Shown here piece after piece: positions 2,493 to 26,329 of a DNA stretch of 35,735 nucleotides (its first letter is position 1; each line of letters begins with the position of its first letter). A program made the position numbers and the translations under genes. The DNA comes from Hyphomicrobiales bacterium. GTDB lineage: Bacteria; Pseudomonadota; Alphaproteobacteria; Rhizobiales; JAJFHB01. Location: contig JAJFHL010000127.1 in assembly GCA_021775615.1 (NCBI GenBank), forward strand, positions 1 through 35,735, given 5' to 3'. The notes below the pieces were generated by a model. The model made no database searches, was not told where the DNA came from, and saw nothing but the letters and a program-made list of their open reading frames with translations.

Positions 2493-2502
2493 CAAACTCT
2501 CC

Positions 2503-6082: not shown

Positions 6083-6173
6083 TTTACCGCTATCGTGTTT
6101 TGCAACTTTCAAGCGCCATCGGTTTGAAGCATATTGATGCCTGTTGGCATCGGCAGAAGGACGGGTCTTCGGA

Positions 6174-6893: not shown

Positions 6894-6953
6894 GGCCGCC
6901 GGACATGCCGAATACACCAACCGGGCTCCGTCCTGCTGCGGGGAAGAGGGAAT

Positions 6954-7919: not shown

Positions 7920-8227
7920 ACAGCATTGGAAGCACGGGTACCCGATGAGTTCACCGGGCAGGCGAGGGCGCGCGACGGCGTTGTGAAATGCAGGTGTGCA
8001 GCCTGATCGCACGGCGGACGATGACGGGTGGCGGACGCTGGCCGGCGTGGTGGTTTTTTGCCTGAGCAGATGCGTGCGCGCATCGCGTTGCGCGGTGCGC
8101 CGACGCCAAATTAGCCTGACAGTACCGTTTCGAAGCTTGTCCATCGTGTGGGCTTTGCCTTAGAAGGCGATGAAGCCGGCCGTCCGAAGACGCCGGACAC
8201 AATAACCTGCGAAAGGGTGGCCCGCTT
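7920..8227. other. Non-coding gap, 308 bp
   Basis: GC-rich sequence between the FAH gene and the NodB-fold gene. No ORF with a ribosome binding site and recognisable product was seen, and no strong terminator with a T-run. It probably carries the promoter of the 8228-11242 genes, but I cannot place it. Confidence 0.5.
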
Positions 8228-9130
8228 ATGATCCGAAACCCGATTCCCTGGCCGAACGGCGCCAAATGCGCATGCTGCATCACCTTCGATATGGACGCTG
8301 ACAGCCTGGTCCATGTCGACCATCCGCTCGACGGTCATTCGCGTGTTTCGGCCATTTCGATGCTGCAATACGGGCCCGACGTCGCCGTTCCCCGGATTGT
8401 CGAGACCTATGAACGACTGGGTCTGACGCAGACGTTTTTCATCCCGGCCTGGTGCATCGAGACCTATCCGGAGGCGGTCGAAACAATCATGAAAGGCGGC
8501 CATGAGATTGGCCACCACGGCTACATTCATGAGAACCCGAGATCGAACACGCGCGAGGAGGAAGCCTATTGGCTCGACCGTTCGCTTGAGGTGATCGAAC
8601 GGGTTACCGGCAAAAGACCGCGCGGATGGCGGGCGCCGCTCTACAACTTTTCAAACCACTCCGCCGAGCTTCTGGTCGAGCGCGGCTTTGTCTATGACGC
8701 CTCGCTGATGGGAGACGATATCCCTTACATGATCGAAGCCAGGAACGGCCGGCTGGTGGAGCTGCCCTCGCACTGGGGCATGGACGACTGGCCGCAATTC
8801 GTCCAGTCATTCGATCTCGACTACATGATGCCGGTGCGCGCGCCGCGTTCCGGGTTTGAGATTTTCCGGCAGGAGTTCGACGTCGCCTACAAATATGGCG
8901 GGCTGTGGGTGCCGGTCGTTCACCCCTTCGCCACCGGCCGGCTCTCGCGCTGGCATGTGGTCGCCGAGTTCCTGGAAGAGATCCTGGCGCGCGGCGATGT
9001 GTGGTTTGCGCCGATGGAGCAGATCGCCGCGCATGTGAACCGCGTCACCGATGCCGGCGACTACCAGCCACGCGTGGTGCGTGTTCCGCAATATGACGGA
9101 CCGGTCAGCCCGGTGCCGCCAAAAGACTGA
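8228..9130 (+). CDS. Polysaccharide-deacetylase (NodB-fold) family protein, PuuE/PgdA-like
   Basis: A 300-residue NodB-fold (carbohydrate esterase 4) protein without a signal peptide, so cytoplasmic. ITFDMDADS (residues ~17-25) matches the aspartate motif, GGHEIGHHGYIHE (~94-106) the His-x-x-x-His-type motif, and RGWRAPLYNFS the RxP loop. The length and the ending match the HpPgdA/PuuE group, which includes metal-independent allantoinase as well as peptidoglycan deacetylases. The next gene overlaps by one base (TGATG) and encodes an allantoate/N-carbamoyl-amino-acid amidohydrolase. That supports a cyclic-ureide or amide-ring-opening role over cell-wall modification. The specific substrate is not determined. 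Confidence 0.85.
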   Translation: MIRNPIPWPNGAKCACCITFDMDADSLVHVDHPLDGHSRVSAISMLQYGPDVAVPRIVETYERLGLTQTFFIPAWCIETYPEAVETIMKGGHEIGHHGYIHENPRSNTREEEAYWLDRSLEVIERVTGKRPRGWRAPLYNFSNHSAELLVERGFVYDASLMGDDIPYMIEARNGRLVELPSHWGMDDWPQFVQSFDLDYMMPVRAPRSGFEIFRQEFDVAYKYGGLWVPVVHPFATGRLSRWHVVAEFLEEILARGDVWFAPMEQIAAHVNRVTDAGDYQPRVVRVPQYDGPVSPVPPKD

Positions 9131-10386
9131 TGGGGGTGCGAATGGCGAGCGATGTATCAGGCGTGCGGGTGAACGGCGAGCGACTGTGGCAGACCCACAT
9201 GGAGATGGCCGAAATCGGCGCAATCCCCAATGACGGCTGTTGCCGGCTGACCCTGACCGACGAGGACAAGCGGGCGCGAGACCTGTTCGCGGAATGGTGC
9301 GTCGCTGCGGGCTGCCGCGTCGATGTGGACCTGGCCGGCAACATGTTCGCGACACGGCCGGGCCGGCAGGCGGCGCCGCCGGTCGCCACCGGCAGCCATC
9401 TCGACACCCAGCCCCATGGCGGCCGGTTCGACGGCATCTACGGTGTGCTGGCAGGCCTGGAAGTGATCCGCACACTGAACGATGCGGACATCGAAACCGA
9501 GCTTCCCGTGGCGGTGGTCAACTGGACCAACGAGGAGGGGGTCCGGTTTCCGGCAGGCATTCTGGGGTCGACCGCCTATGCCGGCCGCTGGGCGCTTGAC
9601 GACCTGCACAGGCTGGTGGCCACCGACGGCGCAACGTTCGGCGATGAACTGAAGCGCATCGGGTATGACGGCGAGCTCGGCCTCGGTGCTTTCGAGATGG
9701 CTGCGTTCTACGAGGCCCATATCGAACAGGGGCCCGTGCTCGAGCGTGAGGACATTCCCGTCGGCGTCGTGACCAAGGTGCAGGGTCTTCGGTGGATTGA
9801 AGTCACGGTCACCGGCGCCGACCGTCATGCGGGCACCACGCCGATGGACGCGCGCAGCGACAGCCTGGTGGCGGCCGCCCGCATGATCGTCGAGCTTGAA
9901 GCGCTCGGTTTGGCGCATGCCCCCGATGCCCGCGTGACTGTCGGCCGCCTCGACGTATCACCGAATTCCGGCAGCACGATCCCCGGTGGCACCTTGTTCA
10001 ACATCGATCTCAGGCACCCGGAGTTGGAGACGCTGGACCGGCTGGAGGGCGAAATCGCCGCCTTGTGTAATGCGGCTGCGGAACGCCAGTCGGCCAGGGT
10101 TGATGTTCGCCGCACCGTCGAGATGCCGCCCGTCGACTTTGACGAAACCTGCGTCGCCGATCTCGAACGCGCCGCCGCTGCGCTCGACATTCCCAGCCGG
10201 CGCATGCTGAGCGGGGCGTTGCACGATGCCTCGCCGGTCGGCACGATCGTGCCTGCCGCGATGATCTTCGTGCCGTGCCGCGACGGCATCAGCCACAACG
10301 AGGCGGAATGGGCGGAGCCCGCCCACCTGGAGGCGGGCTGCAACGTCATGCTGCATGCAATGCTCGGCCGGGCGGGTGTCGCGTGA
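9130..10386 (+). CDS. M20-family Zn hydrolase (N-carbamoyl-L-amino-acid / allantoate amidohydrolase type)
   Basis: A 418-residue M20-type amidohydrolase of the HyuC/AllC/beta-ureidopropionase group, which removes carbamoyl groups and releases CO2 and ammonia. ATGSHLDTQPHGGRFDG (residues 87-102) contains metal ligands His90 and Asp101. NWTNEEGVRF holds Glu135/136, YEAHIEQGPVLE holds His197, and RDGISHNEAEW holds His389. The substrate-binding SGALHDASPV block is present. The lid segment DRHAGTTPMDARSD is characteristic of the family. An alternative ATG at 9142 has GGGGGT closer upstream, so the exact start is uncertain. It overlaps the preceding gene by one base and is followed by an Asp/Glu-racemase-fold gene. 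The real substrate could be any ureido acid. Confidence 0.9.
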   Translation: MGVRMASDVSGVRVNGERLWQTHMEMAEIGAIPNDGCCRLTLTDEDKRARDLFAEWCVAAGCRVDVDLAGNMFATRPGRQAAPPVATGSHLDTQPHGGRFDGIYGVLAGLEVIRTLNDADIETELPVAVVNWTNEEGVRFPAGILGSTAYAGRWALDDLHRLVATDGATFGDELKRIGYDGELGLGAFEMAAFYEAHIEQGPVLEREDIPVGVVTKVQGLRWIEVTVTGADRHAGTTPMDARSDSLVAAARMIVELEALGLAHAPDARVTVGRLDVSPNSGSTIPGGTLFNIDLRHPELETLDRLEGEIAALCNAAAERQSARVDVRRTVEMPPVDFDETCVADLERAAAALDIPSRRMLSGALHDASPVGTIVPAAMIFVPCRDGISHNEAEWAEPAHLEAGCNVMLHAMLGRAGVA

Positions 10387-10453
10387 CCCGCGTTGACAGC
10401 GCCATGCGCAGTGCGCAACCATCGCCGCCGCCCAACCTGCGGAGGTCCCTGCC

Positions 10454-11242
10454 GTGACAGACACACCCGTCAAGTCCAGATCCTTTTCGGCCCGTTTTGA
10501 CGAGGGCCGCCATCACCGTGCCAAATTCGGCTTCGTCGTGCTGGCCATGGAGCAGACCGTGGAGGACGATGTGTTCCGCCTGGCGCCGGATGGTGTCGGC
10601 GTGCATTTCTCACGCATGGCCATGTCGAACGAGGCGACGGTGGAAACGCTCAAAAGCATGGAGCCCGGCATCGAAACCGCCGCGTCGCTGCTGCTTCCCG
10701 ACGATGACCTCGATGTCAGCTGCTACACCTGCAATTGCGGCACCATGGTGATCGGCGAGACCCGCGTGATGGATGCTCTGCGCCGGGGCAAGCCGGAGGC
10801 GAATGCAACGACTGTCATGACCGGCGTGGTGAACGGTCTGCGCGCGGTCGGCGCACAGCGGATCGTCGCCGCGACCCCCTATCTCGACGAGATCAATGCA
10901 CATGTTCTGGATTTTCTGCGCGCCAGCGGATTTGATGTGCTCGACATCCAGGGACTCAATCTCATGACCAACAAGGAAATCGATTGTGTCGAACCCGAGT
11001 TCCTGCGCGAGTTCGGCGCCAGCCTCGACCGGCCCGACGCCGACGCGGTGTTCGTGTGCTGTGGGGCCCTGCGCACCCTCGACATTGTCGACGCGCTGGA
11101 ACGCGAGATCGGTAAACCTGCGATCGTCAGCAATCAGGCGATGATGTGGGACTGCCTGAGGCGCGCCGGCATTGAAGACGCGATCGATGGTTACGGCCGT
11201 CTGTTGCGGACCAGTGGCCGCGCCGTCGGGCTGGCTGCCTGA
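10454..11242 (+). CDS. Asp/Glu racemase-superfamily protein, maleate isomerase/arylmalonate decarboxylase-like
   Basis: A 262-residue two-domain protein with the paired-cysteine arrangement of the family. The first cysteine block is SCYTCNCGTMVIGE (residues 89-102), where Cys93 fits the nucleophile position. The second is FVCCGALRTLDIVD (200-213), with Cys203 preceding the L-R-T segment. GKPAIVSNQAMMWDCLR matches the C-terminal block of maleate isomerases and arylmalonate decarboxylases. The start is GTG at 10454, fixed by GGAGG at 10441-10445. The family also includes hydantoin and allantoin racemases, and the neighbouring ureide-type hydrolases make a racemase or isomerase role possible. 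It is convergent with the LysR gene only 38 bp away. Confidence 0.82.
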   Translation: MTDTPVKSRSFSARFDEGRHHRAKFGFVVLAMEQTVEDDVFRLAPDGVGVHFSRMAMSNEATVETLKSMEPGIETAASLLLPDDDLDVSCYTCNCGTMVIGETRVMDALRRGKPEANATTVMTGVVNGLRAVGAQRIVAATPYLDEINAHVLDFLRASGFDVLDIQGLNLMTNKEIDCVEPEFLREFGASLDRPDADAVFVCCGALRTLDIVDALEREIGKPAIVSNQAMMWDCLRRAGIEDAIDGYGRLLRTSGRAVGLAA

Positions 11243-11258: not shown

Positions 11259-11301
11259 GGCAGGCCCGAAAGCCTCTCAATCAGGCAAGCCCGAAAGCCT
11301 C
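11259..11301. repeat. Near-perfect 18-bp direct repeat at the LysR 3' end
   Basis: GGCAGGCCCGAAAGCCTC (11259-11276) and GGCAAGCCCGAAAGCCTC (11284-11301) match at 17 of 18 positions with a 25-bp offset. The second copy contains the last codons and stop of the LysR gene, so the first looks like a duplicated gene end in the convergent gap. The first copy can also fold (AGGC-N6-GCCT). Confidence 0.6.
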
Positions 11302-12192
11302 GAGCAGATCGGTTTTGAGATACTGCGCCGCGAGCGTTTGCGGCACGGTCTTGCGCAGGATCAGCTCCATCCCGGTTTCATAGTGCATCCGATCGGGTAG
11401 CACCGTTTTCATCTCACCGCTGGCGACCCAGCGGGCCGCGTAGTGTTCGGGCAGAAATCCGATAAAACCACCTGACAGGATCAGCATGGCAATAGCTTCC
11501 ATGTTTTCCGCATAGGCGGCGGCGTTCAGGAATTCGGCTGAGGGGATATGTCCGTCCGGCACGTATGGCCGCTTGACGAAATTGTGCCGCGCGAGATCCG
11601 ACACATCAGTTTCGCCGGGATCGGCCTCGAAGAGCGGGTGCATGCTGCTGCAATACAGGCGCTGGCTCTCCGGCAGGAGGGGCGTGTACTCGATGGCGGA
11701 AATCTGTTTGGTGTAGGCACCGATACCGATGTGATGGCGGCCTTCGACGACGGCTCGTTCGATTTCGGCGGGTGTCGCGACATGCAGGCTGATCTGTACG
11801 TCGCCATGTCTCCTGGTGAATTTTGCGAGCGCACTGGAAAGCGCGAATTTCGGATTGCCGGCCACGCTGTCAATCGTGGCAATATGAAGTTCGCCGGTGA
11901 GCCGGCCCCGCAAAGCCTCGACTTCCGAGCTGAAGGAATCGATCGAGCGAAACAGCCGCTGCGCCGCCTCGTAGACGCGGTTTCCGTTCTGTGTGATCCG
12001 AAATCCGGCGCGCCCGCGTTCGCACAGCCGCATGTCGAGGCGCGCCTCGAGTGCGGCCATGTGCGAGCTTATGGTGGACTGGCTGACGTTCATCGCCACC
12101 TGTGCGGGCGTAAAGCCGCCGCACTCGACGACGGTCGAAAATACGCGCAACAGCCGCACATCCACCTGGCTGACGTTGATGCTGCTCGTCAT
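11281..12192 (-). CDS. LysR-family transcriptional regulator
   Basis: A 303-residue LysR regulator of normal length. The N-terminal helix-turn-helix (residues ~10-65) contains LRVFSTVVECGGFTPAQVAM, NVSQSTISSHMAALEARL and LCERGRAGFRITQNG. The remainder is the two-lobed effector domain, with GELHIATIDSVAGNPKFALS at the start of lobe one. It is divergent from the creatininase gene at 12419 across a 226-bp AT-rich gap, so it most likely controls the creatininase-BMP transporter-amidinotransferase unit. It is convergent with the racemase-fold gene. The effector cannot be inferred from sequence. Confidence 0.93.
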   Translation of the reverse strand: MTSSINVSQVDVRLLRVFSTVVECGGFTPAQVAMNVSQSTISSHMAALEARLDMRLCERGRAGFRITQNGNRVYEAAQRLFRSIDSFSSEVEALRGRLTGELHIATIDSVAGNPKFALSSALAKFTRRHGDVQISLHVATPAEIERAVVEGRHHIGIGAYTKQISAIEYTPLLPESQRLYCSSMHPLFEADPGETDVSDLARHNFVKRPYVPDGHIPSAEFLNAAAYAENMEAIAMLILSGGFIGFLPEHYAARWVASGEMKTVLPDRMHYETGMELILRKTVPQTLAAQYLKTDLLEAFGLA

Positions 12193-12418: not shown

Positions 12419-13195
12419 GTGATCGCCTCAGTCATGATGTCCGACCTCAGTTGGGACGAATACCAGCGCCGTATCGCCGACGAAGACGCAATCGTGCTGC
12501 TGCCGGTCGGGGCGGTCGAGCAGCACGGCTATCATCTGCCGCTGGGAACCGATTGGATGATGGCCACCTACATGGCCCGGCGCGCGGCGGAAAATGTCGG
12601 CGGCGTCGTGGCGGCGCCCATCACCTATGGCTATCGCTCCCAGATCCGCACCGGCGGCGGCCCCCATCGCGGCGGCACCACCAATCTCGACGGGCTGACC
12701 CTGATCAACCTGGTCAAGGACGTCCTGAAGGAACTGGTGCGGCACGGCGCCCGCAAGCTCGCGGTCATAGACGGCCATTTCGAGAACCGGTTCTATCTGG
12801 ACGAGGCCTGTTTTCTTGCTGTCCGGGAACTCGAATATGCCGGCATTACCGATGCGAAAATCCTCAAGATGATCTACGCCGAAGACATCAAGCCCGAGAC
12901 ACTTGAGACCATCTATGCCGGCAAGACGTATCCGGGCCTTGACCTGGAACATGGTGGCATCCTCGAGACCGCGATGATGCTCTATTGCCACCCCGATCAC
13001 GTGGATATGTCCAAGATCCCGGACGAAGATCTGCCCAAGTTTCCGCCCTATGATCTGTTTCCCGTCGATCCGGACTGGGTGCCGGCCTCCGGCGGCTTGT
13101 CGTCGGGCAAGGGCTCGACGGTTGAAATGGGCAGGCTCCTGGTCGAGGAATTTGTCGACTTGGTGAGCACGTCACTGAGCAAGGAGTTTCGCTGA
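12419..13195 (+). CDS. Creatininase-family amidohydrolase
   Basis: A 258-residue protein; creatininase from Pseudomonas putida is about 260. It aligns without gaps from the GTG start, and all five metal ligands fall at the same numbers as I recall them for the P. putida enzyme: Glu34 and His36 (VEQHG), Asp45 (LGTD), His120 and Glu122 (DGHFEN). EHGGILETAMML and FPPYDLFPVDP further down also match. Two tryptophans that contact creatinine in that enzyme (154 and 174) correspond to Ala and Leu here, and Tyr121 to Phe. The fold and two-metal chemistry are therefore clear, but creatinine may not be the substrate. It opens an operon-like run with a BMP transporter and an amidinotransferase-fold enzyme and is divergent from a LysR gene. 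Confidence 0.9.
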   Translation: MIASVMMSDLSWDEYQRRIADEDAIVLLPVGAVEQHGYHLPLGTDWMMATYMARRAAENVGGVVAAPITYGYRSQIRTGGGPHRGGTTNLDGLTLINLVKDVLKELVRHGARKLAVIDGHFENRFYLDEACFLAVRELEYAGITDAKILKMIYAEDIKPETLETIYAGKTYPGLDLEHGGILETAMMLYCHPDHVDMSKIPDEDLPKFPPYDLFPVDPDWVPASGGLSSGKGSTVEMGRLLVEEFVDLVSTSLSKEFR

Positions 13196-13273
13196 AGCTG
13201 GCCGGTCACCCACTGTATCTGAGACATCTGCTTTATCTTTGAACGTCAAACAAAACAAAAGGGAGAAACGCAC

Positions 13274-14227
13274 ATGATCATTTCGAGACGAAACCTACTG
13301 ATTGCGACCTCCGTGGTGGCTGGTGCCGGTGCAATGGGCCGGCCTGTTTTCGCCGCCGATTTCAAGGCAGCCGCCGTTTTGCCCGGCTCGATTACCGATC
13401 AGGCGTTCAACCAGGTTGTCTACGAGGGCCTGGAGGCGGCCAAGAGCAAACTCGGCATCGAAGTTGCGTTTTCCGAAAAGGTGAAACAGGCGGATCAGGT
13501 CTCCGCCATGTCGGACTATGCACGCCGCGGTTACAACATGGTCATCGGCGCTGGCGGAGAATTCACCGCGGCGGCGCAGCGGGTTGCCAAGCAGCACCCT
13601 GAAGTACTGGTCGCTGTCATCAACGGCGCGCCGACCGAAGGTATCGCCACGGTCAACTATAACAATCCGCAGTTCGGATATGTGCTCGGCTATATCGGCG
13701 GCAAAATGACCAAGAGCGGCAAGGCCGGCATGGTGTGCGCCCAGGAGATCAAGGCGTTCGTCGATATCGCCGCCGGCTTCAAGAAGGGCTGGGCCAAGGG
13801 TGGCGGCTCCGGCGAAGTGACGCTGACCTATACCGACGACTGGGATGACGTTGCTAAAGCCAAGGAAGCGACCCTCAATCTGATCAACCAGGGCGCAGAT
13901 GTGGTTGTGCCTTATCTCGACAACGGTATCGTCGGTGTGGTCCAGGCGGCAGAAGAGAAGGGCGTGTGGGCTACCGGCGTGATTACGGATCTTGGCAAGT
14001 CTTCGCCGAAGGCCAACCTCGCCTCCACCGTTCTCGACTTCGCGGCGGCGACGGCAACGGCGATCGAACTCGGCATGAAAGGCGAGTTGGCGCGGGAAGA
14101 CTATAAGTTCGCCATGGGCTCGGCTGCGGGCTACATGGGTACGATCAATGATGCCGTGCCCGCGGATGTCAAGGCGGAAGCCATGGCGATCGTCGATCAA
14201 ATGACGGCCGGCACCTTCGAAATGTAA
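13274..14227 (+). CDS. BMP-family ABC transporter substrate-binding protein
   Basis: A 317-residue BMP/PnrA-type periplasmic binding protein. The N-terminus reads MIISRRNLLIATS, a twin-arginine (Tat-like) signal, with cleavage likely after VFAA. The mature start AAVLPGSITDQAFNQVVYEGL matches the D-x-x-F-N-Q pattern of the family. Characterised members mostly bind nucleosides, but the ligand range is wider. GGGAG lies before the ATG at 13274. It sits 78 nt after the creatininase gene and is followed by a stem-loop and then the ATPase and two permeases, which form a complete importer. Ligand unknown; the neighbours point to a guanidino, ureido or cyclic-amidine compound. Confidence 0.93.
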   Translation: MIISRRNLLIATSVVAGAGAMGRPVFAADFKAAAVLPGSITDQAFNQVVYEGLEAAKSKLGIEVAFSEKVKQADQVSAMSDYARRGYNMVIGAGGEFTAAAQRVAKQHPEVLVAVINGAPTEGIATVNYNNPQFGYVLGYIGGKMTKSGKAGMVCAQEIKAFVDIAAGFKKGWAKGGGSGEVTLTYTDDWDDVAKAKEATLNLINQGADVVVPYLDNGIVGVVQAAEEKGVWATGVITDLGKSSPKANLASTVLDFAAATATAIELGMKGELAREDYKFAMGSAAGYMGTINDAVPADVKAEAMAIVDQMTAGTFEM

Positions 14228-14241
14228 CGGCGCTACTTTAA

Positions 14242-14270
14242 GGGATGCCTGCCGGATTGGTGGGCATCCC
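14242..14270 (+). terminator. Stem-loop after the BMP binding-protein gene
   Basis: GGGATGCC (14242-14249) pairs perfectly with GGCATCCC (14263-14270) around a 13-nt loop, 15 nt after the stop codon. No T-run follows. It probably stabilises the upstream message or partly attenuates transcription into the ATPase gene. Confidence 0.65.
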
Positions 14271-14315
14271 GAAGTGACGTGACGTATTTCGGTAATCACC
14301 GCCAAGAGGCAGCCG

Positions 14316-15827
14316 GTGACCAACTACAAGCTCTCGCTGGAGAACATTTCCAAGTCGTTTGGAACCCTGAAGGCAAACGACCAGGTGACCCTGGACGTGC
14401 GGCCCGGCACGGTGCATGCGGTGCTTGGCGAGAACGGCGCGGGCAAGAGCACCTTGATGAACATTCTCTACGGCCTCTACCGGCCGGACGAGGGCCGCAT
14501 TCTGGTGGACGGCCAGGCGGTCGCCATCGACAGTCCGCGTGCCGCGCTTGCCGCCGGTATCGGCATGGTGCACCAGCATTTCATGCTGGTTGGACAGCTC
14601 ACGGTTACAGAGAACATCGTGCTTGGAATGAAGGGCCAGGGCCTGAAGCTGGATCTGGCGACCCATGTTCGGAAAATTTCCGAATTGAGCCAGTCGTTCG
14701 GGTTCGAGATCGATCCCGAGGCCGAGGTGATGAAGCTGCCGATCGGCATGCAGCAGCGGGTGGAGATCCTCAAGCTGCTCTACCACAACGCGGAAGTCCT
14801 CATCCTGGATGAGCCGACCAGCGTCCTGACCCCCAATGAGACCGGTCCGTTTTTCGAGTTACTCGAACGTCTCAAATCGGCCGGCAAGACCATCATCTTC
14901 ATCACCCATAAGCTGGATGAAGTGATGACCATTGCTGACGATGTCACGGTGATGCAGGACGGCAAGGTGATGGCGTCGCTGCCGAAGTCCGATACTGATC
15001 CGGCAAACCTCGCACGCATCATGGTGGGCCGTGAAGTTCTGTTTCAGGTCAAACGGTCCAGTCATGCGTCTGGCCCGGTGGTGTTGCGCCTGGCTGACGT
15101 GAGCGCCAGCAACACGCGCGGCCTCACGGCGCTCGATCAGGTCACTCTTGAGGTGCGCGCTGGCGAAGTTTTCGGCATTGCCGGCGTGGATGGCAACGGC
15201 CAGGCCGAACTGGCTGAAACCATCGCCGGTCTGCGGCCGGTCGACTCCGGCCGGATTTTTTTGTCCGACAGCGACATCACTCAGACGTCGATTTCCGATC
15301 GTGCCGACAAGCTGGGGATCGCCTACGTCCCCGAAGACCGGCACCGGGACGGTATCGTTCTGGACGAGAGCGTTGCTCAGAACATGATCCTGCGAACATA
15401 TGATCGTGCGCCTTTTGCGCGTTTCGGGTTTTTCAATCCGGGAGCCATTCGCGACCATGCCGAACGCCTGACCTCGGCCTTCAATGTTCGCATGCAGTCG
15501 GTGGATCAGGAGATACGTTTCCTTTCCGGCGGCAATCAGCAAAAAGTGATCCTGGCGCGCGAGCTTGAGGGCGAACCCAAGGTGCTGATCGTGGCGCAGC
15601 CGACAAAGGGGTTGGACGTCGGTGCGATTGAATTCGTCCAACAGCAGATTCTGGTGCAGCGCGACCGCGGCGTCGCCGTGCTCTACATTTCGACGGAGCT
15701 GGAACACCTGCTCGATGTGTGCGACCGGGTGGGCGTTCTGTTCAGTGGTAAGCTGATGGATACCGTGGACTCAAGCGAGGCGACACCTGAACGCGTTGGC
15801 CTGCTCATGGCCGGCGTTGCGGCGTAG
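14316..15827 (+). CDS. BMP-type ABC transporter ATP-binding protein (two nucleotide-binding domains)
   Basis: A 503-residue protein with two ATPase domains, as in nucleoside and sugar importers of this class. Domain one has Walker A GENGAGKS (38-45), the signature position LPIGMQQRVEIL and Walker B VLILDEPTS. Domain two has the degenerate Walker A VDGNGQAEL, a normal LSGGNQQKV signature and Walker B LIVAQPTKGLD, a pattern usual for the class. The start is GTG at 14316, giving MTNYKLSLENI. It lies between the binding protein and two permeases in one transcription direction, with short gaps that suggest co-transcription. Confidence 0.95.
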   Translation: MTNYKLSLENISKSFGTLKANDQVTLDVRPGTVHAVLGENGAGKSTLMNILYGLYRPDEGRILVDGQAVAIDSPRAALAAGIGMVHQHFMLVGQLTVTENIVLGMKGQGLKLDLATHVRKISELSQSFGFEIDPEAEVMKLPIGMQQRVEILKLLYHNAEVLILDEPTSVLTPNETGPFFELLERLKSAGKTIIFITHKLDEVMTIADDVTVMQDGKVMASLPKSDTDPANLARIMVGREVLFQVKRSSHASGPVVLRLADVSASNTRGLTALDQVTLEVRAGEVFGIAGVDGNGQAELAETIAGLRPVDSGRIFLSDSDITQTSISDRADKLGIAYVPEDRHRDGIVLDESVAQNMILRTYDRAPFARFGFFNPGAIRDHAERLTSAFNVRMQSVDQEIRFLSGGNQQKVILARELEGEPKVLIVAQPTKGLDVGAIEFVQQQILVQRDRGVAVLYISTELEHLLDVCDRVGVLFSGKLMDTVDSSEATPERVGLLMAGVAA

Positions 15828-15840
15828 GAGAGGCGACGCC

Positions 15841-16938
15841 ATGGAACGGGTCTATCGCGTTTTGTTTCACTTGCGCAGCGTATGGGCGATCATTGCCGCG
15901 CTGGCGGTCGGTTCGATCCTCATCCTGGCGGCCGGAAGCAATCCAATCGAAGCCTATTACACTCTGTTTCAAGGAGCGTTTTTCGACTATTGGGGTTTCG
16001 CCTCAACCCTGGTCAAGATGTGCCCGCTGCTGCTCGCGGGACTGGCGGTCGTGCTGCCCCTGAGGGCTGGCCTGTTCAATATCGGCGCTGAAGGCCAGAT
16101 CTATATCGGTGCCCTGTTTGCAACCGTCGTGGCGCTCTATCTGCCCGGCGTTCCAGGGCCGCTGCACATAATCATGTGCACCCTGGCGGGGGCTCTTGGC
16201 GGCGCTCTGTGGGCGCTCATCCCGGCGTTGCTCAAGGCCTATCAGGGGATCAACGAGATCATCGTGACATTGTTGCTCAACTTCGTCGCGCTGCATTTCG
16301 TCAGCTTCATGGTCAGCGGTCCGATGATGGAACCAGGCGCACCCTATCCCTATTCGCCGGAGATACCCGATACATTGTTCCTGCCGCATGTGCTGCCGCG
16401 AACCGATGCCCACTTCGGCGTTCTGGTCGGAGTGGTGATCGCGATCGCCATGTATGCGGTTTTCAAACGCGGCGTGTTCGGCTTCACGCTGGCAACGGTC
16501 GGGCGCAATCCGGACGCGGCCCGCTATGCCGGGATGTCGGTCAGGCGCCATATCATCGTGTCGTTCCTGATCGCCGGTGCCTGCGCCGGGCTCGCCGGTA
16601 CGTTCGAAGTGCTGGGCCACCGCTATCGCCTGTTTCACGCGTTCAGCCAGGGCTATGGCTATGACGGTATCGTTGTTGCGTTCCTGGCGGGTCTCAGCCC
16701 GCTGTTTGCAATCTTCTCGGCGTTGTTTATCGGCGGTTTGCGCAGCGGCGCCAACATGATGCAACGAGCCATGGGCATTGAGACCACCGTGGTCGAGGCG
16801 ATCCAGGGATTGGTCATTCTGTTCGTCGCCGTCTCCCTCGCGTTTCGCTACAAGGTAACGGAGATCGGCAAGGCGATTGCCAGGCGGGGTGAGCTGGAAC
16901 AGGCGCTGGAAGACAAGACAAGCGACGGGAAGGAGTGA
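15841..16938 (+). CDS. BMP-type ABC transporter permease 1
   Basis: A 365-residue membrane protein with about ten hydrophobic segments. The segment FNIGAEGQIYIGA (79-91) is the hallmark of the larger permease of nucleoside/BMP-type importers, and GINEIIVTLLLNF and TVGRNPDAARYAGM are also typical. I chose the ATG at 15841, preceded by GGAGAGG, over an in-frame ATG at 15796 inside the ATPase gene. It ends five bases before the start of permease 2 and should pair with it in the inner membrane. Confidence 0.94.
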   Translation: MERVYRVLFHLRSVWAIIAALAVGSILILAAGSNPIEAYYTLFQGAFFDYWGFASTLVKMCPLLLAGLAVVLPLRAGLFNIGAEGQIYIGALFATVVALYLPGVPGPLHIIMCTLAGALGGALWALIPALLKAYQGINEIIVTLLLNFVALHFVSFMVSGPMMEPGAPYPYSPEIPDTLFLPHVLPRTDAHFGVLVGVVIAIAMYAVFKRGVFGFTLATVGRNPDAARYAGMSVRRHIIVSFLIAGACAGLAGTFEVLGHRYRLFHAFSQGYGYDGIVVAFLAGLSPLFAIFSALFIGGLRSGANMMQRAMGIETTVVEAIQGLVILFVAVSLAFRYKVTEIGKAIARRGELEQALEDKTSDGKE

Positions 16939-16942
16939 GGTC

Positions 16943-17884
16943 ATGGAAAGTCTGCTCAACCCGCAAGCCATCACCGAAATACTGACCACAAGCCTCAGGC
17001 TCTCGGTGCCACTGGTGTTCGCCGCACTCGCGGGCGTGCTGTCGGAGCGCAGCGGCGTGTTCAACATTGCACTCGAGGGCAAGATCCTCGCCGGCGCATT
17101 CGGTGCTGCGGTCGGCGCTTTTTTCATGAACGATCCCTATAGCGGCCTGGTTGTCGGCATGCTGTTCGGAATGCTGGCGGGCTCGATCCTGGCGGTGCTC
17201 GGCGTGACATTCGGCGTCAACCAGATCGTCACCGGCATCGCGATCAATATATTCGTGCTTGGAATAACCGCGTTCCTGTCACGTATCGTGTTTGGCGCGC
17301 AGGCCAACACGTTGCGGCTGCCGGGCTTTAAGGCGTTCGACTTTCCCGGCCTCTCGTCGATCCCCATTATCGGGCCCGTACTGTTCGGCCAGGACCTCAT
17401 GGTCTATCTGATGTTCGCCTGTGTCGGTCTGGTGTATTTTTTCCTCTACTTGACACCTTGGGGGCTGGCTGTGCGCGCGGTCGGCGAGAACCCCGCGGCA
17501 GCTGACAGCGCCGGTCTGTCGGTGCCGAAACTGCGCTACGGTTGCGTCATCGCGGCCGGGGCGCTTGCGGCTCTGGGCGGCTGCTATCTGGTGCTGGCAC
17601 AGGTCTTTCTGTTTTCTGAGCATATGAGTGCGGGCAAGGGCTTCATTGCGCTTGCCGCAGTCATCCTGGGACGCTGGAACCCGGTCGGCGCAATGTGCGC
17701 ATGCCTGTTGTTCGGCTTTTTCGACGCGCTTCAACTGCGCCTTCAGTTCAACTATCAAGAAGTGCCGCACCAGTTTTTCCTGATGCTGCCTTACCTGATT
17801 TCGATCCTCGCCCTGGTCGGTCTGGTCGGCAAGCCGCGGCCACCCTCGGCGGTCGGCCGCCACTATCGGCGCGAGGCAAAGTGA
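16943..17884 (+). CDS. BMP-type ABC transporter permease 2
   Basis: A 313-residue membrane protein of the second BMP permease family. GVFNIALEGKILAGA (38-52) and FGVNQIVTGIAINIF are characteristic, as is VGENPAAADSAGLS. The ATG at 16943 is preceded by AAGGAGTGAGG, which spans the permease 1 stop, so the genes are coupled. With permease 1, the ATPase and the binding protein it makes a full importer. The operon probably continues into the amidinotransferase-fold gene 50 nt downstream. Confidence 0.94.
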   Translation: MESLLNPQAITEILTTSLRLSVPLVFAALAGVLSERSGVFNIALEGKILAGAFGAAVGAFFMNDPYSGLVVGMLFGMLAGSILAVLGVTFGVNQIVTGIAINIFVLGITAFLSRIVFGAQANTLRLPGFKAFDFPGLSSIPIIGPVLFGQDLMVYLMFACVGLVYFFLYLTPWGLAVRAVGENPAAADSAGLSVPKLRYGCVIAAGALAALGGCYLVLAQVFLFSEHMSAGKGFIALAAVILGRWNPVGAMCACLLFGFFDALQLRLQFNYQEVPHQFFLMLPYLISILALVGLVGKPRPPSAVGRHYRREAK

Positions 17885-17934
17885 GGCGGCGCACTGAATT
17901 CGAACACTCATGACCTGCAGATGAGGAGACCGAC

Positions 17935-18963
17935 ATGTTGGACAAACCAGAAGACACCGCCGCGACGGGCGCGGCCGCATCGAAAACCGACCCCATTTTC
18001 GTTCGCAGCGAGTGGGGCGAACTGAAGGAGTGCGTTTATGGCGGCTACGATCAGTTCGTGTTCCCGAAGTTCCTGCAAGATGCCGACGTGCGCCCCTCCG
18101 GCGATTTTCGGCAGTTCTGGTTCGACAACCAGGAAAAGGTCGTCAAGGACGCCGACCCCGAGTATTACGCGCGCTGGCAGTCGCAGATCAAAGGCACGGT
18201 CGAATTCCTTGAGAACAGCGGCATCAAGGTGCATCTGCCGGACCGCATCAGCGACCAGAACATGAAGTTCCCGCGCGGTGAGAACCATGGCGTGCTGACC
18301 GGCTGGCTGCGCGACCCGTTTGTCACCATCGGCAACAACGTCATCGAACTGGCGCCGCGCTCGATGTTCCACCGCCGCCAGCGCTTCGCCATCCGCCACA
18401 TCCTGGCCGCCACCATGGATCGCGGCGCGCGCTATTACGCGCAGCCGGATTCGGGCGCCGATGACGACAACGAAGGCAAGCCCGGCTGGGGCTATCTGGA
18501 AGGCGGCGACATTCTGGTGCTGGGAAGCAAGATATTGGTCGGCCACTCGGGCAACTGCTCGAACGCCGAGGGCGTGCGCTGGCTGCAGCACATGCTGGGA
18601 CCCGACTACGATATCGAGATGGTGAACATCGACGCCCGCTTCTCCCATCTCGACTGCGTCATGCTGACCCCGCGCGAGGGCGTTGCCGTCGTCTCGCTGG
18701 AATGCCTCCCCGACGGTGTTCCCGACTACATGAAGGACTGGGACCTGATCGACGTGCCGTTCGATGTCACCAAGGTGCATATGGGCTGCAACAATCTGAC
18801 GATCAACGATCAGACCGTGATCATGCCCACCGGCGAGCCCCACGACCGGGTCGCCGGCGAACTTGAGGCGCGCAAGTTCGAGGTCATCCGGATGCCCTAC
18901 GACGCGGTCTACTGCCTCGGCGGGTCGTTCCGCTGCGCGCATCAGCCGTTCATCCGCCTGTAG
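17935..18963 (+). CDS. Amidinotransferase-fold enzyme (glycine/inosamine amidinotransferase-like)
   Basis: A 342-residue member of the guanidino-modifying (GME) superfamily, close in length to StrB1 and AGAT-type amidinotransferases (~347). The catalytic triad is visible: Asp192 in YLEGGDIL, His239 in RFSHLDCVM and nucleophile Cys334 in LGGSFRCAHQP. Related members transfer an amidino group from arginine or hydrolyse guanidino groups (arginine deiminase, DDAH). The GGSFRC ending favours the amidinotransferase branch. GAGGAG lies before the ATG at 17935. It follows the importer genes, which links the transported compound to guanidino chemistry. Whether it transfers or hydrolyses cannot be told here. 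Confidence 0.9.
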   Translation: MLDKPEDTAATGAAASKTDPIFVRSEWGELKECVYGGYDQFVFPKFLQDADVRPSGDFRQFWFDNQEKVVKDADPEYYARWQSQIKGTVEFLENSGIKVHLPDRISDQNMKFPRGENHGVLTGWLRDPFVTIGNNVIELAPRSMFHRRQRFAIRHILAATMDRGARYYAQPDSGADDDNEGKPGWGYLEGGDILVLGSKILVGHSGNCSNAEGVRWLQHMLGPDYDIEMVNIDARFSHLDCVMLTPREGVAVVSLECLPDGVPDYMKDWDLIDVPFDVTKVHMGCNNLTINDQTVIMPTGEPHDRVAGELEARKFEVIRMPYDAVYCLGGSFRCAHQPFIRL

Positions 18964-18979
18964 CCGGGAGAGCGCGGTC

Positions 18980-19963
18980 ATGCGTGCGATCGAAGTCGCA
19001 GCTAGCGGCGGCGTAGACAAACTCGTCTTTGTCGATCTGCCGGATCCGGTGCCCGCTGCACGCGAGGTCGTCATCGACGTTGCATTTGCAGCGGCGAACT
19101 GGAGCGATATTCAAAAGCGCGAGGGGGTCTATCCAGATCCCGTCGCCTATCCCGCGGTGATCGGGCTTGAGGTCTCGGGCACCGTGAGTTCCATTGGGGC
19201 GGGGGTAGGCGGGCTCGAACCCGGGCAACGGGTGTGCGCCATCACGGGGCCGGGAATGCTCGGCGGCTATGCCGAGAAATGTGTCGTCGGCGTTGACTTC
19301 GTCATCCCGCTTCCCGATACGATATCTCTTGAAACCGGCGCCGCCTTTCCGATGGTGACCCTGACCGCCTATCACCTGTTGAACAGCGCTTACAGCCTTG
19401 AGCGCGGCGACTCGGTTCTGGTCCACGCCATCGGCGGTGCGGTGGGGCTGGCCGTCACGCAACTTGCCATGGAGAAGAGGACGACCGTGATCGGTACGGT
19501 GAGCGGGGCCGGCAAGGGCGACAAGGCGCGTGCCTACGGCGCGCATCTCGTCATCGACCGCAGCGCGGAGGATTTCGTCGAAGCGGTCACGAAGTTTACC
19601 GATGGTGCGGGCGTCGACCTCGTTATCGACTCTCTCGGTGGCGATATCCTTCCGCGCAGCATCGATCTCCTCAAGACCTACGGGCACGCCATCAATATCG
19701 GCGAGGCGGCGGGCTATCCCGACTTCGACATTCGGCCGAAGCTCTACGAGAACTCAACGTCTCTGGCGGGTTTCGAGGTCCTGCATGCCATGCGCGTTCC
19801 CGGACTGTGGCAAAAGGGCGTCGACGACGTCATGAGCCATCTGATGTCGGGCACGCTGGAGATGCCGGTCGCGGGGATCTTTCCGTTCGAGGCGGTGCAA
19901 GACCTTCACCGCAAGCTTGAATCGCGCACGGTCAGCGGCAAGCTTCTGCTTCAGGTTTCCTAG
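18980..19963 (+). CDS. MDR-family NAD(P)H:quinone oxidoreductase-like protein
   Basis: A 327-residue medium-chain dehydrogenase/reductase. The N-terminal GroES-like half lacks structural or catalytic zinc cysteines, as in the quinone-oxidoreductase branch. The Rossmann domain begins at VLVHAIGGAVGLAVTQLA, and the NADPH-type loop TVSGAGKGDKA follows. GADLVID-like segments (GAGVDLVIDSLGGD) are typical. I chose the ATG at 18980, 16 nt after the amidinotransferase stop, with GGGAGA upstream. It is the last gene of the plus-strand unit that starts with creatininase. The substrate is unknown; in such operons these proteins often reduce an enone or quinone-like intermediate. Confidence 0.9.
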   Translation: MRAIEVAASGGVDKLVFVDLPDPVPAAREVVIDVAFAAANWSDIQKREGVYPDPVAYPAVIGLEVSGTVSSIGAGVGGLEPGQRVCAITGPGMLGGYAEKCVVGVDFVIPLPDTISLETGAAFPMVTLTAYHLLNSAYSLERGDSVLVHAIGGAVGLAVTQLAMEKRTTVIGTVSGAGKGDKARAYGAHLVIDRSAEDFVEAVTKFTDGAGVDLVIDSLGGDILPRSIDLLKTYGHAINIGEAAGYPDFDIRPKLYENSTSLAGFEVLHAMRVPGLWQKGVDDVMSHLMSGTLEMPVAGIFPFEAVQDLHRKLESRTVSGKLLLQVS

Positions 19964-20075
19964 ATCACGATCGGCTTTGGTGGACTTATCTAAGCCGATA
20001 AAACGTGATCGATTCACATATTTTAGAGCGGAATCGGCCGGAAAACCGGTGCCCACTTTTCCTGATCCCGCTCTA
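19964..20075. repeat. Palindromic intergenic mosaic element (rhizobial RIME-like)
   Basis: Two palindromic units fill the convergent gap. The first pairs ATCGGCTT (19970-19977) with AAGCCGAT (19992-19999), with outer arms ATCACG and CGTGAT. The second pairs TAGAGCGG (20024-20031) with CCGCTCTA (20068-20075) and contains CCGG-AAAA-CCGG inside. From memory, such sequences are repeated in intergenic regions of rhizobial genomes. The TAG stop of the ureohydrolase gene is part of the outer right arm. It could also serve as a bidirectional terminator. Confidence 0.7.
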
Positions 20076-21056
20076 TGCGCAGTAGTCCCAGGCGCCGACC
20101 TTGTCGCAGCGCGGTGCCGCGAGGCAGCAAATGGCCTCGACCATGATCCGGGCCGCCAGCGTGCTGGTGATGCCGCTCGTGGCATCGAAGTCCGGTGAAA
20201 CCTCGACCACGTCAAACCCGCAGAACCCGTTTTCAGCCGCCAGCCGCACGCCGTTGATGATTTCGCGCGACGTCATGCCGCCGGGCTCGAGGCTGTTGGT
20301 TCCAGGCGCGTAAGCCGGGTCCATGACATCGATATCGACACTGATGTAGGGCGGTTTTCCGTCCGGCGAAACGATCTTCAGGGCTTCGCGGGTCACCTCC
20401 TCGATACCGCGCACCTGTACCTCCCGGTCGGGATAGACCTTCAATCCCAGTTCTTTGTAGAGTGGCGTCCATTCGGGGAGATTGCGTGGGCCTTTCGGCC
20501 CGATGATAGCGACGCGCGACGGGTCGACCTCCTCAAGCTCAAGGATGCGAAGCACCGGCGAGGCACGCGTGAGCCGGTCGTTGTTGAAGCTTTCGCTCAG
20601 GTCGAGATGGGTGTCGAACAGGAGAAACCCGAGAGGGCCACCGGTTTTTCCGGCAACCGCCTTGACGGCCGGATAGGTCACGCCATGGTCGCCGCCGAAC
20701 ATGAGCGGAACGGCGCCGCAGTTCTGGATCTCGGCAATTTTCGCCTCGAGCCGGCGGTAGCTTTCCGGTGTGTCGCCGGGGACCACGTCGACATCGCCGC
20801 AGTCGAACACCCGAACATGGTCGAGCGCATGCATGTCCCAATCGAAATTGTAGCTCGAGAACAACAGTGAGTATTTTCGGATCTCCTGCGGAGCCCGGCG
20901 CGTCGCGCCGCCACGGAACGTGGCGATACCGTCATAGGGCATGCCGATGACGACGGCATCCGCCGAGACGCCGCTTAGGTCGGGAACATGATCCACCCCC
21001 ATGAACGGCGGAACGTCGCCAAACATGATCGGAACTTCATTCGGCGACAATGCCAT
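20073..21056 (-). CDS. Ureohydrolase (agmatinase/guanidinobutyrase/arginase family)
   Basis: A 327-residue ureohydrolase, a family that removes urea from guanidino compounds using two Mn (or Ni) ions. Expected ligands are visible: His124 in GGDHG, Asp148, His150 and Asp152 in FDTHLD, and Asp241 and Asp243 in DIDVMDP. Glu285 (VVEVSP) fits the conserved substrate-side glutamate. Two departures stand out. DTHLD replaces the common DAHxD, and the following HG-T/S-P motif of arginases and agmatinases reads LTRASPV, without the His-Gly. The true substrate may therefore differ from agmatine. It is convergent with the amidinotransferase-MDR unit and lies downstream of the amidohydrolase gene on the same strand. 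Confidence 0.9.
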   Translation of the reverse strand: MALSPNEVPIMFGDVPPFMGVDHVPDLSGVSADAVVIGMPYDGIATFRGGATRRAPQEIRKYSLLFSSYNFDWDMHALDHVRVFDCGDVDVVPGDTPESYRRLEAKIAEIQNCGAVPLMFGGDHGVTYPAVKAVAGKTGGPLGFLLFDTHLDLSESFNNDRLTRASPVLRILELEEVDPSRVAIIGPKGPRNLPEWTPLYKELGLKVYPDREVQVRGIEEVTREALKIVSPDGKPPYISVDIDVMDPAYAPGTNSLEPGGMTSREIINGVRLAAENGFCGFDVVEVSPDFDATSGITSTLAARIMVEAICCLAAPRCDKVGAWDYCA

Positions 21057-21137: not shown

Positions 21138-22766
21138 TCACCTCTGAAAAACGATCTGCCCGCCGAGCACCGTCATGTCCACCTGGATGTCGCGGATGTC
21201 CTCGGCCGGTATAGAGAAGAAATCGCGGTCGAGCACGGCAATGTCGGCCAGCTTGCCGATCTCAAGCGATCCCTTGACGGCTTCCTCGCGGCCGGACCAT
21301 GCGCCGAGCGTTGTGTATGCGTGCAGCGCCTCTTCGCGCGACACCGCCTGGGATTTGTCAAGATCGCAGCCGGTGTCGGACTGGCGGTTGACCATGGACC
21401 ATATGGCCAGGAACGGATTGGCCTGGCAAACCATCGCATCCGAATGACCCGGTGCCGGCACGCCGGCGTCGATCAGGCTGCGGTGCGGCCACATCCAGCG
21501 CATGGCGTCGGCCCCGCGATTGGCCCGGTAGGCGCCTCCCAGGTCATACATGAAGCCGGTCGCTGAACTGTCGACAGCGCCGACCCGTTTCAGCCGGTCG
21601 AGGATTTGCGGCGTGACGTAACAGCAGTGTTCCACGCGCATGCGATGATCGTCCGCCGGGTGGGCCTCGAGACATGCTTCGATGGCATCAAGCGCGAAGT
21701 CGATGCCACGGTCGCCGACACCCTCGATCATGACCTGCAGGCCGGCTTGATGTGCGGCTATGGCGCGCGCCGTCAGGTCTTCGGCGTCGTAAAGAAGCAC
21801 GCCGGTATTCGGCACCGGCTCGCCCTCGACCGGGGTGCCGACGTAAGGGTCATAGTAAGCCGCTGTGCGGCCCGACGTCGAGCAGTCCGGACACCACTCG
21901 ACACCGATCACCCGTATCATGTCATCTCCGAAGCCGGAGCGGACGCCGGACTGGATGAAGGCCTCGATCAGGCCGTCCTCGCGACCCGAGACGATGATGC
22001 CGACCCGCATCCTGAGGCGCTCCGATTGCCGCATCTTCTGATAGGCCTCGATCGAAAGCCGTCCGCAAAGCGAATTGTAGACGCTGGTGATGCCGTAGCC
22101 GAGCCACTCGTCAAACACCTGTTCCAGGCCGGCGGCCACCATCTCCGCGGTGTCGCCTGCATGGATGTGCGTCAGGAAGATATGCGCCGCGGTCTCGCGC
22201 GCCAGACCGGTCAGCTCGCCGGTATCGGAATGCCGGTCGAAGCTGCCGAACGGGGGATCGGACGGATCGGCTCCGAGGCCGACTTCGGTGAATGCGCGTC
22301 GGTTGGCAAGGCCGAGATGACCGTCGGTGCGCTGGATGAACAACGGCCGGCCGTCTGCCGCCCTGTCCATCTCGTCAAGGGTCGGATACCCGCCGGACTT
22401 GACATCGTCGAAACGGTAGCAGGCGATCCAGTCGTCGTGCCCCCGCGCCTTGGCCGCGTCCGCGATATGGTCGAGCAGGGCGGCACGCGATCCGATCCGG
22501 TCAGGACTGACGACCTCCCAGGTGCCGAGCCTAGCGGCGTGCATGTCCGGATGGCAATGGCTGTCGATAATGCCCGGAATTGCGGTGCGTCCGTCAAGCG
22601 CGTGGACCGAGGTCCCGTCTCCCGCCAGCGCGCGAATGTCGTCGTCTTCGCCAAGTGCCACGATCCGGCCGTCGCGAGCCGCAACCGCGGAGGCGAAGCG
22701 GTCGTCGCGGTCCATGGTGGCGATCTTTCCACCCCAATAGATCTGGTCGGCTACGAGCCGGCTCAT
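21138..22766 (-). CDS. Amidohydrolase superfamily protein (YtcJ/NfdA-like) with altered metal site
   Basis: A 542-residue TIM-barrel amidohydrolase of usual YtcJ length. The strand-one HxH is present (His70, His72 in IDSHCH). The conserved strand-six His (VEHCC, His380) and strand-eight Asp (GHSDAMV, Asp443) are present. The segment that is usually HAIGDRA reads IEGVGDRG, putting Glu348 where a metal-binding His is expected. The segment expected to read GxKxxxDG reads GVEWCPDC, with Glu290 at the Lys position. Known relatives include N-substituted formamide deformylase. It lies 81 nt upstream of the ureohydrolase on the same strand and may form an operon with it. Activity cannot be assumed given the changes. 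Confidence 0.87.
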   Translation of the reverse strand: MSRLVADQIYWGGKIATMDRDDRFASAVAARDGRIVALGEDDDIRALAGDGTSVHALDGRTAIPGIIDSHCHPDMHAARLGTWEVVSPDRIGSRAALLDHIADAAKARGHDDWIACYRFDDVKSGGYPTLDEMDRAADGRPLFIQRTDGHLGLANRRAFTEVGLGADPSDPPFGSFDRHSDTGELTGLARETAAHIFLTHIHAGDTAEMVAAGLEQVFDEWLGYGITSVYNSLCGRLSIEAYQKMRQSERLRMRVGIIVSGREDGLIEAFIQSGVRSGFGDDMIRVIGVEWCPDCSTSGRTAAYYDPYVGTPVEGEPVPNTGVLLYDAEDLTARAIAAHQAGLQVMIEGVGDRGIDFALDAIEACLEAHPADDHRMRVEHCCYVTPQILDRLKRVGAVDSSATGFMYDLGGAYRANRGADAMRWMWPHRSLIDAGVPAPGHSDAMVCQANPFLAIWSMVNRQSDTGCDLDKSQAVSREEALHAYTTLGAWSGREEAVKGSLEIGKLADIAVLDRDFFSIPAEDIRDIQVDMTVLGGQIVFQR

Positions 22767-24233: not shown

Positions 24234-24571
24234 GTTCCATCTTCATCTATCGAATTTTTCGATACAGTCTGTAGAATCTATATGGTTGCAGTCAAGCGGC
24301 ATCTCTTCAGAATGCGACTGCATCGCAATAACAAGCGGAACGAGATGCTCTGATGGTGAAGAGGTAGGCGACCACCGATCTGGCCATATGTCAACGGCCA
24401 GCCAGCAATGAAATTGCCTATGGGGACTTAGGCCTCGTCACAAAGAAGTGGCGCGGACGTGCGTCACACTTGTGCCGGCAAAGCGGCTCCGCCCTGCCGT
24501 GTCCCGTGTGTGGCAGCCGATCTGCCCGGCATCTTGGAGAGCTTGGTTGTACTGGAATGGAGGATCCTGGC
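24234..24571. promoter_or_regulatory. Divergent control region between LysR and Rieske genes
   Basis: A 338-bp gap with no supportable gene. The 60 bp next to the LysR start are AT-rich and hold a 17-bp palindrome listed separately. The Rieske promoter should lie in the right half; I cannot place its boxes. Confidence 0.6.
24248..24264. promoter_or_regulatory. LysR-type operator, 17-bp perfect palindrome
   Basis: TATCGAA-TTT-TTCGATA is a perfect inverted repeat. It contains ATC-N9-GAT (24249-24263), a classic form of the LysR T-N11-A site. It begins 14 bp upstream of the LysR start codon, the usual place for an autoregulatory site that also governs the divergent operon. Confidence 0.75.
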
Positions 24572-25783: not shown

Positions 25784-25788
25784 CTTCG

Positions 25789-26178
25789 GTGGCCAGAAAA
25801 AATATTTCGATACCTTCGGTTGCCGAGCCAGCCGATGCGAGAGTGGGATCCCAGTGCATCAAGTCCGGGAACCTGTTGTTTATCTCCGGACAGATCGCAT
25901 ACCACAACGGCGAACTCGTCGGCCCGGGCGACCCGCTTGAGCAGTGCCGGCAGGCATTTTGTAACATCGAAGCTTTCGTCACCGCTGCCGGCGGAAGCAT
26001 GGATGACGTCGTTTCACTCAATATATTCCTCAGTGATATCCGTTACCGGCAGGCTGCGATCGACGCCCGCGCCGAAGCTTTCGACGAACCCGGTCCCAGC
26101 GCCACCGTCGTTGGAGGAGTGGACTTCGCCTTCGAGGACCTCTTGGTTGAGATAAGCGCGATCGCGGACCTCTCGTAG
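25789..26178 (+). CDS. RidA/YjgF-family protein (non-archetypal)
   Basis: A 129-residue RidA-fold protein of normal length. GNLLFISGQIA and VVSLNIFLSDIRYRQAA are typical. At the place of the archetypal NPPART motif it reads EPGPSATVVGG, so the carboxylate-binding arginine used for imine deamination is absent. It probably belongs to one of the Rid subgroups with another activity. The start is GTG at 25789, five bases after the Rieske stop, with CGGAG upstream. The tight spacing implies co-expression with the oxygenase. It contrasts with the RidA at 2503-2931, which keeps the arginine. Confidence 0.88.
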   Translation: MARKNISIPSVAEPADARVGSQCIKSGNLLFISGQIAYHNGELVGPGDPLEQCRQAFCNIEAFVTAAGGSMDDVVSLNIFLSDIRYRQAAIDARAEAFDEPGPSATVVGGVDFAFEDLLVEISAIADLS

Positions 26179-26194
26179 CCGGCGGAGTGAAAAA

Positions 26195-26323: not shown

Positions 26324-26329
26324 AAAATC

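Follow-up and report, generated by a model that had tools for sequence, protein, structure and literature searches.

We analysed a 35,735-nucleotide stretch of DNA from a Hyphomicrobiales bacterium (GenBank assembly GCA_021775615.1, contig JAJFHL010000127.1, positions 1 to 35,735), referred to here as the window. In this window, a creatininase-family hydrolase, a BMP-type ATP-binding cassette (ABC) importer and an enzyme of the pentein (amidinotransferase) fold are encoded in one run, and an arginase-family ureohydrolase gene lies convergent beside them. The linkage of the creatininase, importer and pentein genes is far from chance, and the cluster is a conserved unit. Our proposal, held with a little less than even confidence, is that the cluster serves the regulated uptake and breakdown of a cyclic guanidine-type compound, a 2-iminoimidazolidinone or a close relative, as a source of nitrogen and possibly of carbon.

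We infer the substrate, the reactions and their order from the gene content, the conserved linkage, the active-site motifs and the separate creatininase clade described below. The BMP-type system would import the cyclic guanidine-type compound, and the creatininase-family enzyme would open its ring to give a guanidino acid. The pentein enzyme would then release ammonia from the guanidino group to yield a ureido (N-carbamoyl) acid, which an M20-family carbamoylase (biuret-hydrolase-like in one relative lineage) may convert into ammonia, carbon dioxide and a free amine or amino acid. For a related ring of the hydantoin type, the opening enzyme is probably an allantoinase-like deacetylase; the ureohydrolase may represent a parallel or side branch.

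The initial annotation had read these genes as a joint pathway that should keep together elsewhere. This idea held up, since the genes do co-occur in other lineages, including one in which they are rearranged. The creatininase-importer-pentein set is conserved in seven lineages. The run of LysR regulator, creatininase, BMP binding protein, ATPase, permeases and pentein enzyme recurs in L009, L010, L012, L034 and L039, and also in L014 with a split pentein frame; the LysR orthologue occupies the equivalent place in all six. L013 carries the same set, with LysR not detected there. The entire window order, from deacetylase through ureohydrolase, is found in L010 at 75-90% identity. G388 and G473, from a different family within the order, have divergently oriented creatininase and ureohydrolase genes next to each other, and the arrangement continues with deacetylase, BMP importer and oxidoreductase, followed by LysR, pentein and M20 genes. 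All four types named in the initial annotation (creatininase, importer, pentein and ureohydrolase) are together again in this rearranged order, and the creatininase of this lineage belongs to another clade (Tyr154, Trp174). Pentein homologues are rare: at E below 1e-60, and with the window's own genome counted each time, the order sample had them in 10 of its 297 genomes, the class sample in 5 of 385 and the phylum sample in 3 of 398. We also observed a second arrangement, in which the neighbours of a paralogous pentein group are LysR, an ABC importer of the polar-amino-acid type and an M20 amidase, joined in some loci by another ureohydrolase-family gene (L009, L036, L039, L047 and the Agrobacterium pusense plasmid L048). 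The two arrangements stand side by side in L009 and L039, while L040-L042 have one pentein gene common to both. The split pentein gene of L014 (10001-10884) lies in two frames of a metagenome-assembled genome, reflecting either a sequencing error or a true frameshift.

The active site of the pentein enzyme, E189-G-G-D192, H238-x-D240 and C334, is invariant in 23 of 23 sequences. It contains the His-x-Asp and Cys of the amidinotransferases but not the Asp of their D-A-A-D motif; instead it has the Glu-His-Cys set with an E-G-G-D-like motif of the arginine deiminase (ADI) and Pseudomonas aeruginosa DDAH type. At the aligned motif, HsvA reads D-A-A-D, P. aeruginosa DDAH E-A-G-D and the window enzyme E-G-G-D, and the triad of arginine deiminase is Cys-His-Glu (PMC3474736). 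On the basis of this motif and of the carbamoylase linkage described next, deimination is favoured over transfer, and the enzyme is probably a guanidino deiminase rather than a transferase. Deimination with decarbamoylation is more likely than amidino transfer, and the guanidino-transfer step of the initial annotation was not supported, the enzyme having the deiminase/hydrolase motif and travelling with carbamoyl hydrolases. An open-access literature search returned nothing relevant on creatine or guanidinoacetate deiminase. Seven more pentein enzymes are encoded in the same genome (G000), which makes its guanidino-enzyme set unusually large; they lie on contigs C377, C95, C36, C243, C333 and C92 (L003-L008) and C360 (L022). 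They comprise one close paralogue (62%), five deiminase/hydrolase-like enzymes with E-G-G-D or E-G-G-S, and one GATM-like enzyme with D-A-A-D, so that within this genome, too, Glu or Asp at the motif separates deiminase-like from transferase-like enzymes. The close paralogue lies on a short contig (L022, 4781-10713) beside XdhC-, MobA- and CoxE-like genes for molybdenum hydroxylase maturation, and in another lineage a pentein paralogue is located between a DDAH-like pentein and an amidase-signature enzyme (L043, 8288-11973; L044, 2150-5770).

The M20 enzyme of the window is a candidate N-carbamoyl hydrolase, nearest to such enzymes: its best PDB matches include N-carbamoyl-beta-alanine and N-carbamoyl-L-amino-acid hydrolases at 346-380 bits, against only 170 for allantoate amidohydrolase. 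An M20 enzyme of the hydantoinase/carbamoylase type or a biuret-hydrolase-like enzyme is encoded close to pentein in 15 of the 23 loci, whereas this type of M20 enzyme occurs in 0 of 25 creatininase loci without pentein (Fisher p 4e-7). In this comparison the loci are not independent and were searched over different spans, annotation was the only basis for some plasmid loci, and one locus, L120, has an annotated M20 metallopeptidase of untyped subfamily. At the level of lineages, such a hydrolase accompanies pentein in 10 of 17; the biuret-hydrolase-like gene lies within the operon only in L012 and L034, which form one lineage. Ureohydrolase-family genes flank 7 of 23 pentein loci and 5 of 25 creatininase loci without pentein. 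Therefore, the carbamoylase tracks the pentein enzyme, and the ureohydrolase does not do so specially. The deacetylase has allantoinase PuuE as its nearest named enzyme family and is a possible ring-opening amidohydrolase. It recurs with the core in L010, L014 and L040-L042, and with the BMP importer in L115 and L116.

The creatininase homologue retains all the metal ligands (E34, H36, D45, H120, E122) and the catalytic H178, shares 44% identity with the P. putida creatininase and scores above the curated TIGR04448 cut-off. Both tryptophans W154 and W174, which we take to close over creatinine in the P. putida structures, are gone, with Ala at 154 and Leu at 174; an open-access literature search for a paper on the role of these tryptophans found none. 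All 9 M24-adjacent creatininases from annotated plasmids keep W154 and W174 and group with the P. putida enzyme, the M24 neighbours being taken as creatinases from their annotation and the P. putida row being the W154A crystal mutant. The window protein and eight relatives, with A/P at 154 and L/R at 174, branch apart from these as a clade of their own (100/99 support). Creatinine is therefore an unlikely substrate. No M24 creatinase is present among the annotated window genes; elsewhere in the genome there are 17 Creatinase_N proteins, one of which NCBIfam assigns as ectoine hydrolase DoeA while the others receive no assignment. The mismatch with the known creatinine route pointed out in the initial annotation was thus borne out, the window enzyme having neither an M24 neighbour nor W154/W174. 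Three more creatininase-family genes of the same genome (C285, L110: 326-1866; C247, L109: 8094-8861), two of them in tandem, encode Phe or Tyr at 154 and Trp at 174. In L103, L106 and L108, creatininase-family genes without pentein adjoin ureohydrolase-family genes, with DUF1989 also in L103 and L108; these creatininases keep W154 but not W174 and may be another substrate group.

The ureohydrolase retains the metal-binding residues of its GGDH, DTHLD and DxD motifs. The HGxP motif reads RASP in 6 of 6 orthologues and aligns with HGTP of guanidinopropionase, Arg replacing His. Against the agmatinase model TIGR01230 the protein scores 173.9 bits, just under the cut-off of 174.3. Since the His of HGxP is replaced, urea release is not secure: it is plausible from the sequence and stays as one option, but the ureohydrolase is a minority companion of the cluster. 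Of 297 genomes, 5 have an orthologue (62% or more), and 4 of the 5 carry the pentein gene as well (Fisher p 3e-6). Because three of these four belong to one genus, the independent evidence comes down to two lineages; in G437 a long chromosomal distance separates the two genes. The initial annotation saw no creatinase, urease or urea carboxylase gene, which agrees with the window annotation but does not extend to the whole genome for urease, whose alpha gene is present outside the window (814 bits vs a cut-off of 680).

The BMP binding protein, two-domain ATPase and two permeases in one run make up a complete BMP-type ABC importer. Overall, the gene set fits guanidino-type catabolism with a dedicated importer, as first annotated, with the reservations given above on transfer and urea. 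Several observations weigh against guanidine breakdown through deimination. The pentein enzyme resembles amidinotransferases overall, and some pentein hydrolases have Asp as the catalytic acid; Glu is not exclusive proof of a deiminase. Its AlphaFold model (nine homologues) has a mean predicted local distance difference test score (pLDDT) of 57, too poor for fold comparison. The M20 gene of the window lies upstream of the divergent LysR, outside the operon, and the compared loci are phylogenetically not independent. The BMP importer and deacetylase are also found without creatininase and pentein on plasmids L115 and L116, the latter additionally with DUF1989, an amidase and a molybdopterin oxidoreductase. 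In a published nitrifier genome survey, bmpA-nupABC occurs with biuret hydrolase and a creatininase-like gene lies near one biuret hydrolase, and these loci are interpreted as serving the use of purine breakdown products (PMC12625717). From these plasmid loci and the survey, the importer cargo may be a cyclic ureide or a compound of both ureide and guanidine character. A purine-derived ureide cluster would import a ureide, cyclic or linear and similar to allantoin, biuret or triuret, and degrade it with the deacetylase, M20, creatininase-like and ureohydrolase-like enzymes, guanidino chemistry being secondary. The PuuE-like deacetylase, the biuret-hydrolase-like gene in the operon of L012 and L034, the Aminobacter locus in which DUF1989, an amidase and a molybdopterin oxidoreductase accompany the BMP importer and deacetylase, and the nitrifier loci (PMC12625717) all speak for it. 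However, ureides call for neither a pentein enzyme nor an arginase-family enzyme, yet both belong to the core of the cluster or occur in it often, the pentein enzyme with its guanidino-type active site intact; we regard this explanation as rather unlikely.

The scheme of the initial annotation, in which import is followed by amidino transfer and by urea release through the ureohydrolase, draws on the whole-length similarity of the pentein enzyme to HsvA (1.7e-28 with profile), GATM, SxtG and StrB1, on the linkage of the ureohydrolase in two lineages and on the urease in the genome. Set against the deiminase-type motif, the pentein gene being tracked by carbamoyl hydrolases and not ureohydrolases, and the RASP variant, it appears improbable. 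Creatinine might also be used by a new route, through creatine and its deimination to N-carbamoylsarcosine and on to sarcosine. The TIGR04448 score, the identity to the P. putida enzyme with complete metal ligands, and a carbamoylase that would fit are all consistent with such a route, but the contrast at positions 154 and 174 between the M24-adjacent creatininases and the window clade, each 9 of 9, makes it quite improbable. A further route, to which we give very little credence, starts from oxidised guanine. Here a nucleobase-type BMP importer would take up 5-guanidinohydantoin/iminoallantoin, the guanine counterpart of allantoin; the creatininase-like enzyme would open the iminohydantoin ring (the ring type of creatinine) and the deacetylase the hydantoin ring, deimination of the guanidino group would fall to the pentein enzyme, and completion of the breakdown to the M20 and ureohydrolase-like enzymes. 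If true, this route would bring the guanidino and ureide traits of the gene set together in one scheme.

Compared with known systems, the proposed guanidine pathway combines familiar elements. Creatinine/creatine loci (creatininase, M24 creatinase and transporter) likewise have a creatininase-family enzyme, a dedicated transporter and LysR. However, their importers are a cytosine permease or a spermidine/putrescine-type ABC system and they carry the M24 neighbour, whereas the window cluster has neither this neighbour nor W154/W174 and adds a pentein enzyme and a carbamoylase. N-carbamoylputrescine amidase is a nitrilase-type enzyme. The agmatine deiminase route in which it acts follows the same logic of a pentein deiminase and then a carbamoyl hydrolase (PMC6447857), but the hydrolase of the window is an M20 metalloenzyme and a creatininase-family step would come before. 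The N-carbamoylsarcosine/hydantoinase route of C. glutamicum, with CrnA, HyuB and CshA, shares a creatininase homologue, hydantoin-type ring opening and carbamoyl hydrolysis (PMC8864220); in contrast, a pentein enzyme is not named there, the hydantoinase and amidase are of other families, and the BMP importer is absent. The nitrifier loci share the BMP-type importer, biuret hydrolase and creatininase-like gene, but pentein, M20 and ureohydrolase genes are not mentioned in the passages of that survey consulted here (PMC12625717), and among our loci the biuret-hydrolase-like gene is confined to one lineage. With HsvA, GATM, SxtG and StrB1, the window pentein enzyme shares the catalytic His-x-Asp and Cys; it differs in the Glu of E-G-G-D, and its setting is catabolic while theirs is biosynthetic.

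The genes of the cluster are listed in Table 1. The creatininase homologue, full BMP importer, pentein enzyme and convergent ureohydrolase, as initially annotated, are intact open reading frames with strong family matches. The limits given there, 12419-21056, proved too narrow upstream: the deacetylase, M20 and EutA-like trio (8228-11242) is counted in the cluster because it recurs with the core in relatives, and the oxidoreductase gene (about 18980-19963), which 11 relative loci share as a homologue, had also been missed. The EutA-like gene, whose product we assume to belong to the racemase superfamily, is adjacent in L010, L012 and L034. Intergenic gaps stay below 90 bases across the seven plus-strand genes from creatininase to oxidoreductase, which makes a single operon plausible. 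An Rfam scan of the window and six relative loci detected neither a guanidine riboswitch nor any other Rfam family. A YtcJ-type amidohydrolase gene (21138-22766) was rejected as a cluster member, as it has an orthologue in none of the relative loci.

Table 1 Genes of the cluster and their family matches.
Feature	Position	Strand	Evidence
Polysaccharide-deacetylase family protein	8228..9130	+	Pfam 61 bits; PuuE model 88.9 bits, below cut-off
M20 hydantoinase/carbamoylase-family amidase	9130..10386	+	TIGR01879 412.8 bits vs cut-off 204
EutA/arylmalonate-decarboxylase-like protein	10454..11242	+	Pfam Amdase 101 bits; EutA 191 bits, below cut-off 318
LysR regulator, divergent from operon	11281..12192	-	Pfam
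Creatininase-family hydrolase	12419..13195	+	Pfam 172 bits; NCBIfam TIGR04448 296.7 vs cut-off 235 bits
BMP-type solute-binding protein	13274..14227	+	Pfam Bmp 142.7 bits; nearest PDB Lbp 7x0r
Two-domain ABC ATPase of importer	14316..15827	+	Pfam ABC_tran, two stretches
Importer permease 1	about 15841..16938	+	Pfam BPD_transp_2 141 bits
Importer permease 2	about 16943..17884	+	Pfam BPD_transp_2 134 bits
Pentein (amidinotransferase-fold) enzyme	17935..18963	+	Pfam ADI only 19 bits; PDB HsvA 8.7e-20, GATM 5e-11
Zinc-binding dehydrogenase/quinone oxidoreductase	about 18980..19963	+	Pfam ADH_zinc_N; quinone_pig3 209.8 bits
Arginase-family ureohydrolase, convergent	20073..21056	-	Pfam Arginase 246.5 bits; nearest PDB guanidinopropionase

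Two other neighbourhoods of the window also carry catabolic genes. A second possible catabolic run at 24470-31047 encodes a Rieske oxygenase, a RidA-like protein, a betaine/choline-type ABC importer and a phosphotriesterase-family protein. The nearest model of the Rieske oxygenase is glycine betaine monooxygenase (173 bits vs a cut-off of 670), and the run may serve the demethylation of a quaternary amine. Another small catabolic neighbourhood, at 1050-5862 and 6144-7919, contains a TRAP transporter (DctP, DctQ, DctM), RidA-like and OsmC-like proteins, two FAH-family hydrolases and a GntR regulator. The minus-strand frames at 6090-7064 and 7098-8144, which have no Pfam match, were rejected as shadows of the plus-strand GntR and FAH genes.

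These results provide a testable function for a pentein family whose members carry the label hypothetical protein in annotations such as that of an Agrobacterium plasmid. Proteins that pass TIGR04448 can fall in a clade without the two active-site tryptophans conserved in creatinase-linked creatininases, and creatinine use may be over-called on this basis. If deimination and decarbamoylation do take place as proposed, the cluster would allow nitrogen recovery from cyclic guanidines independently of urease.

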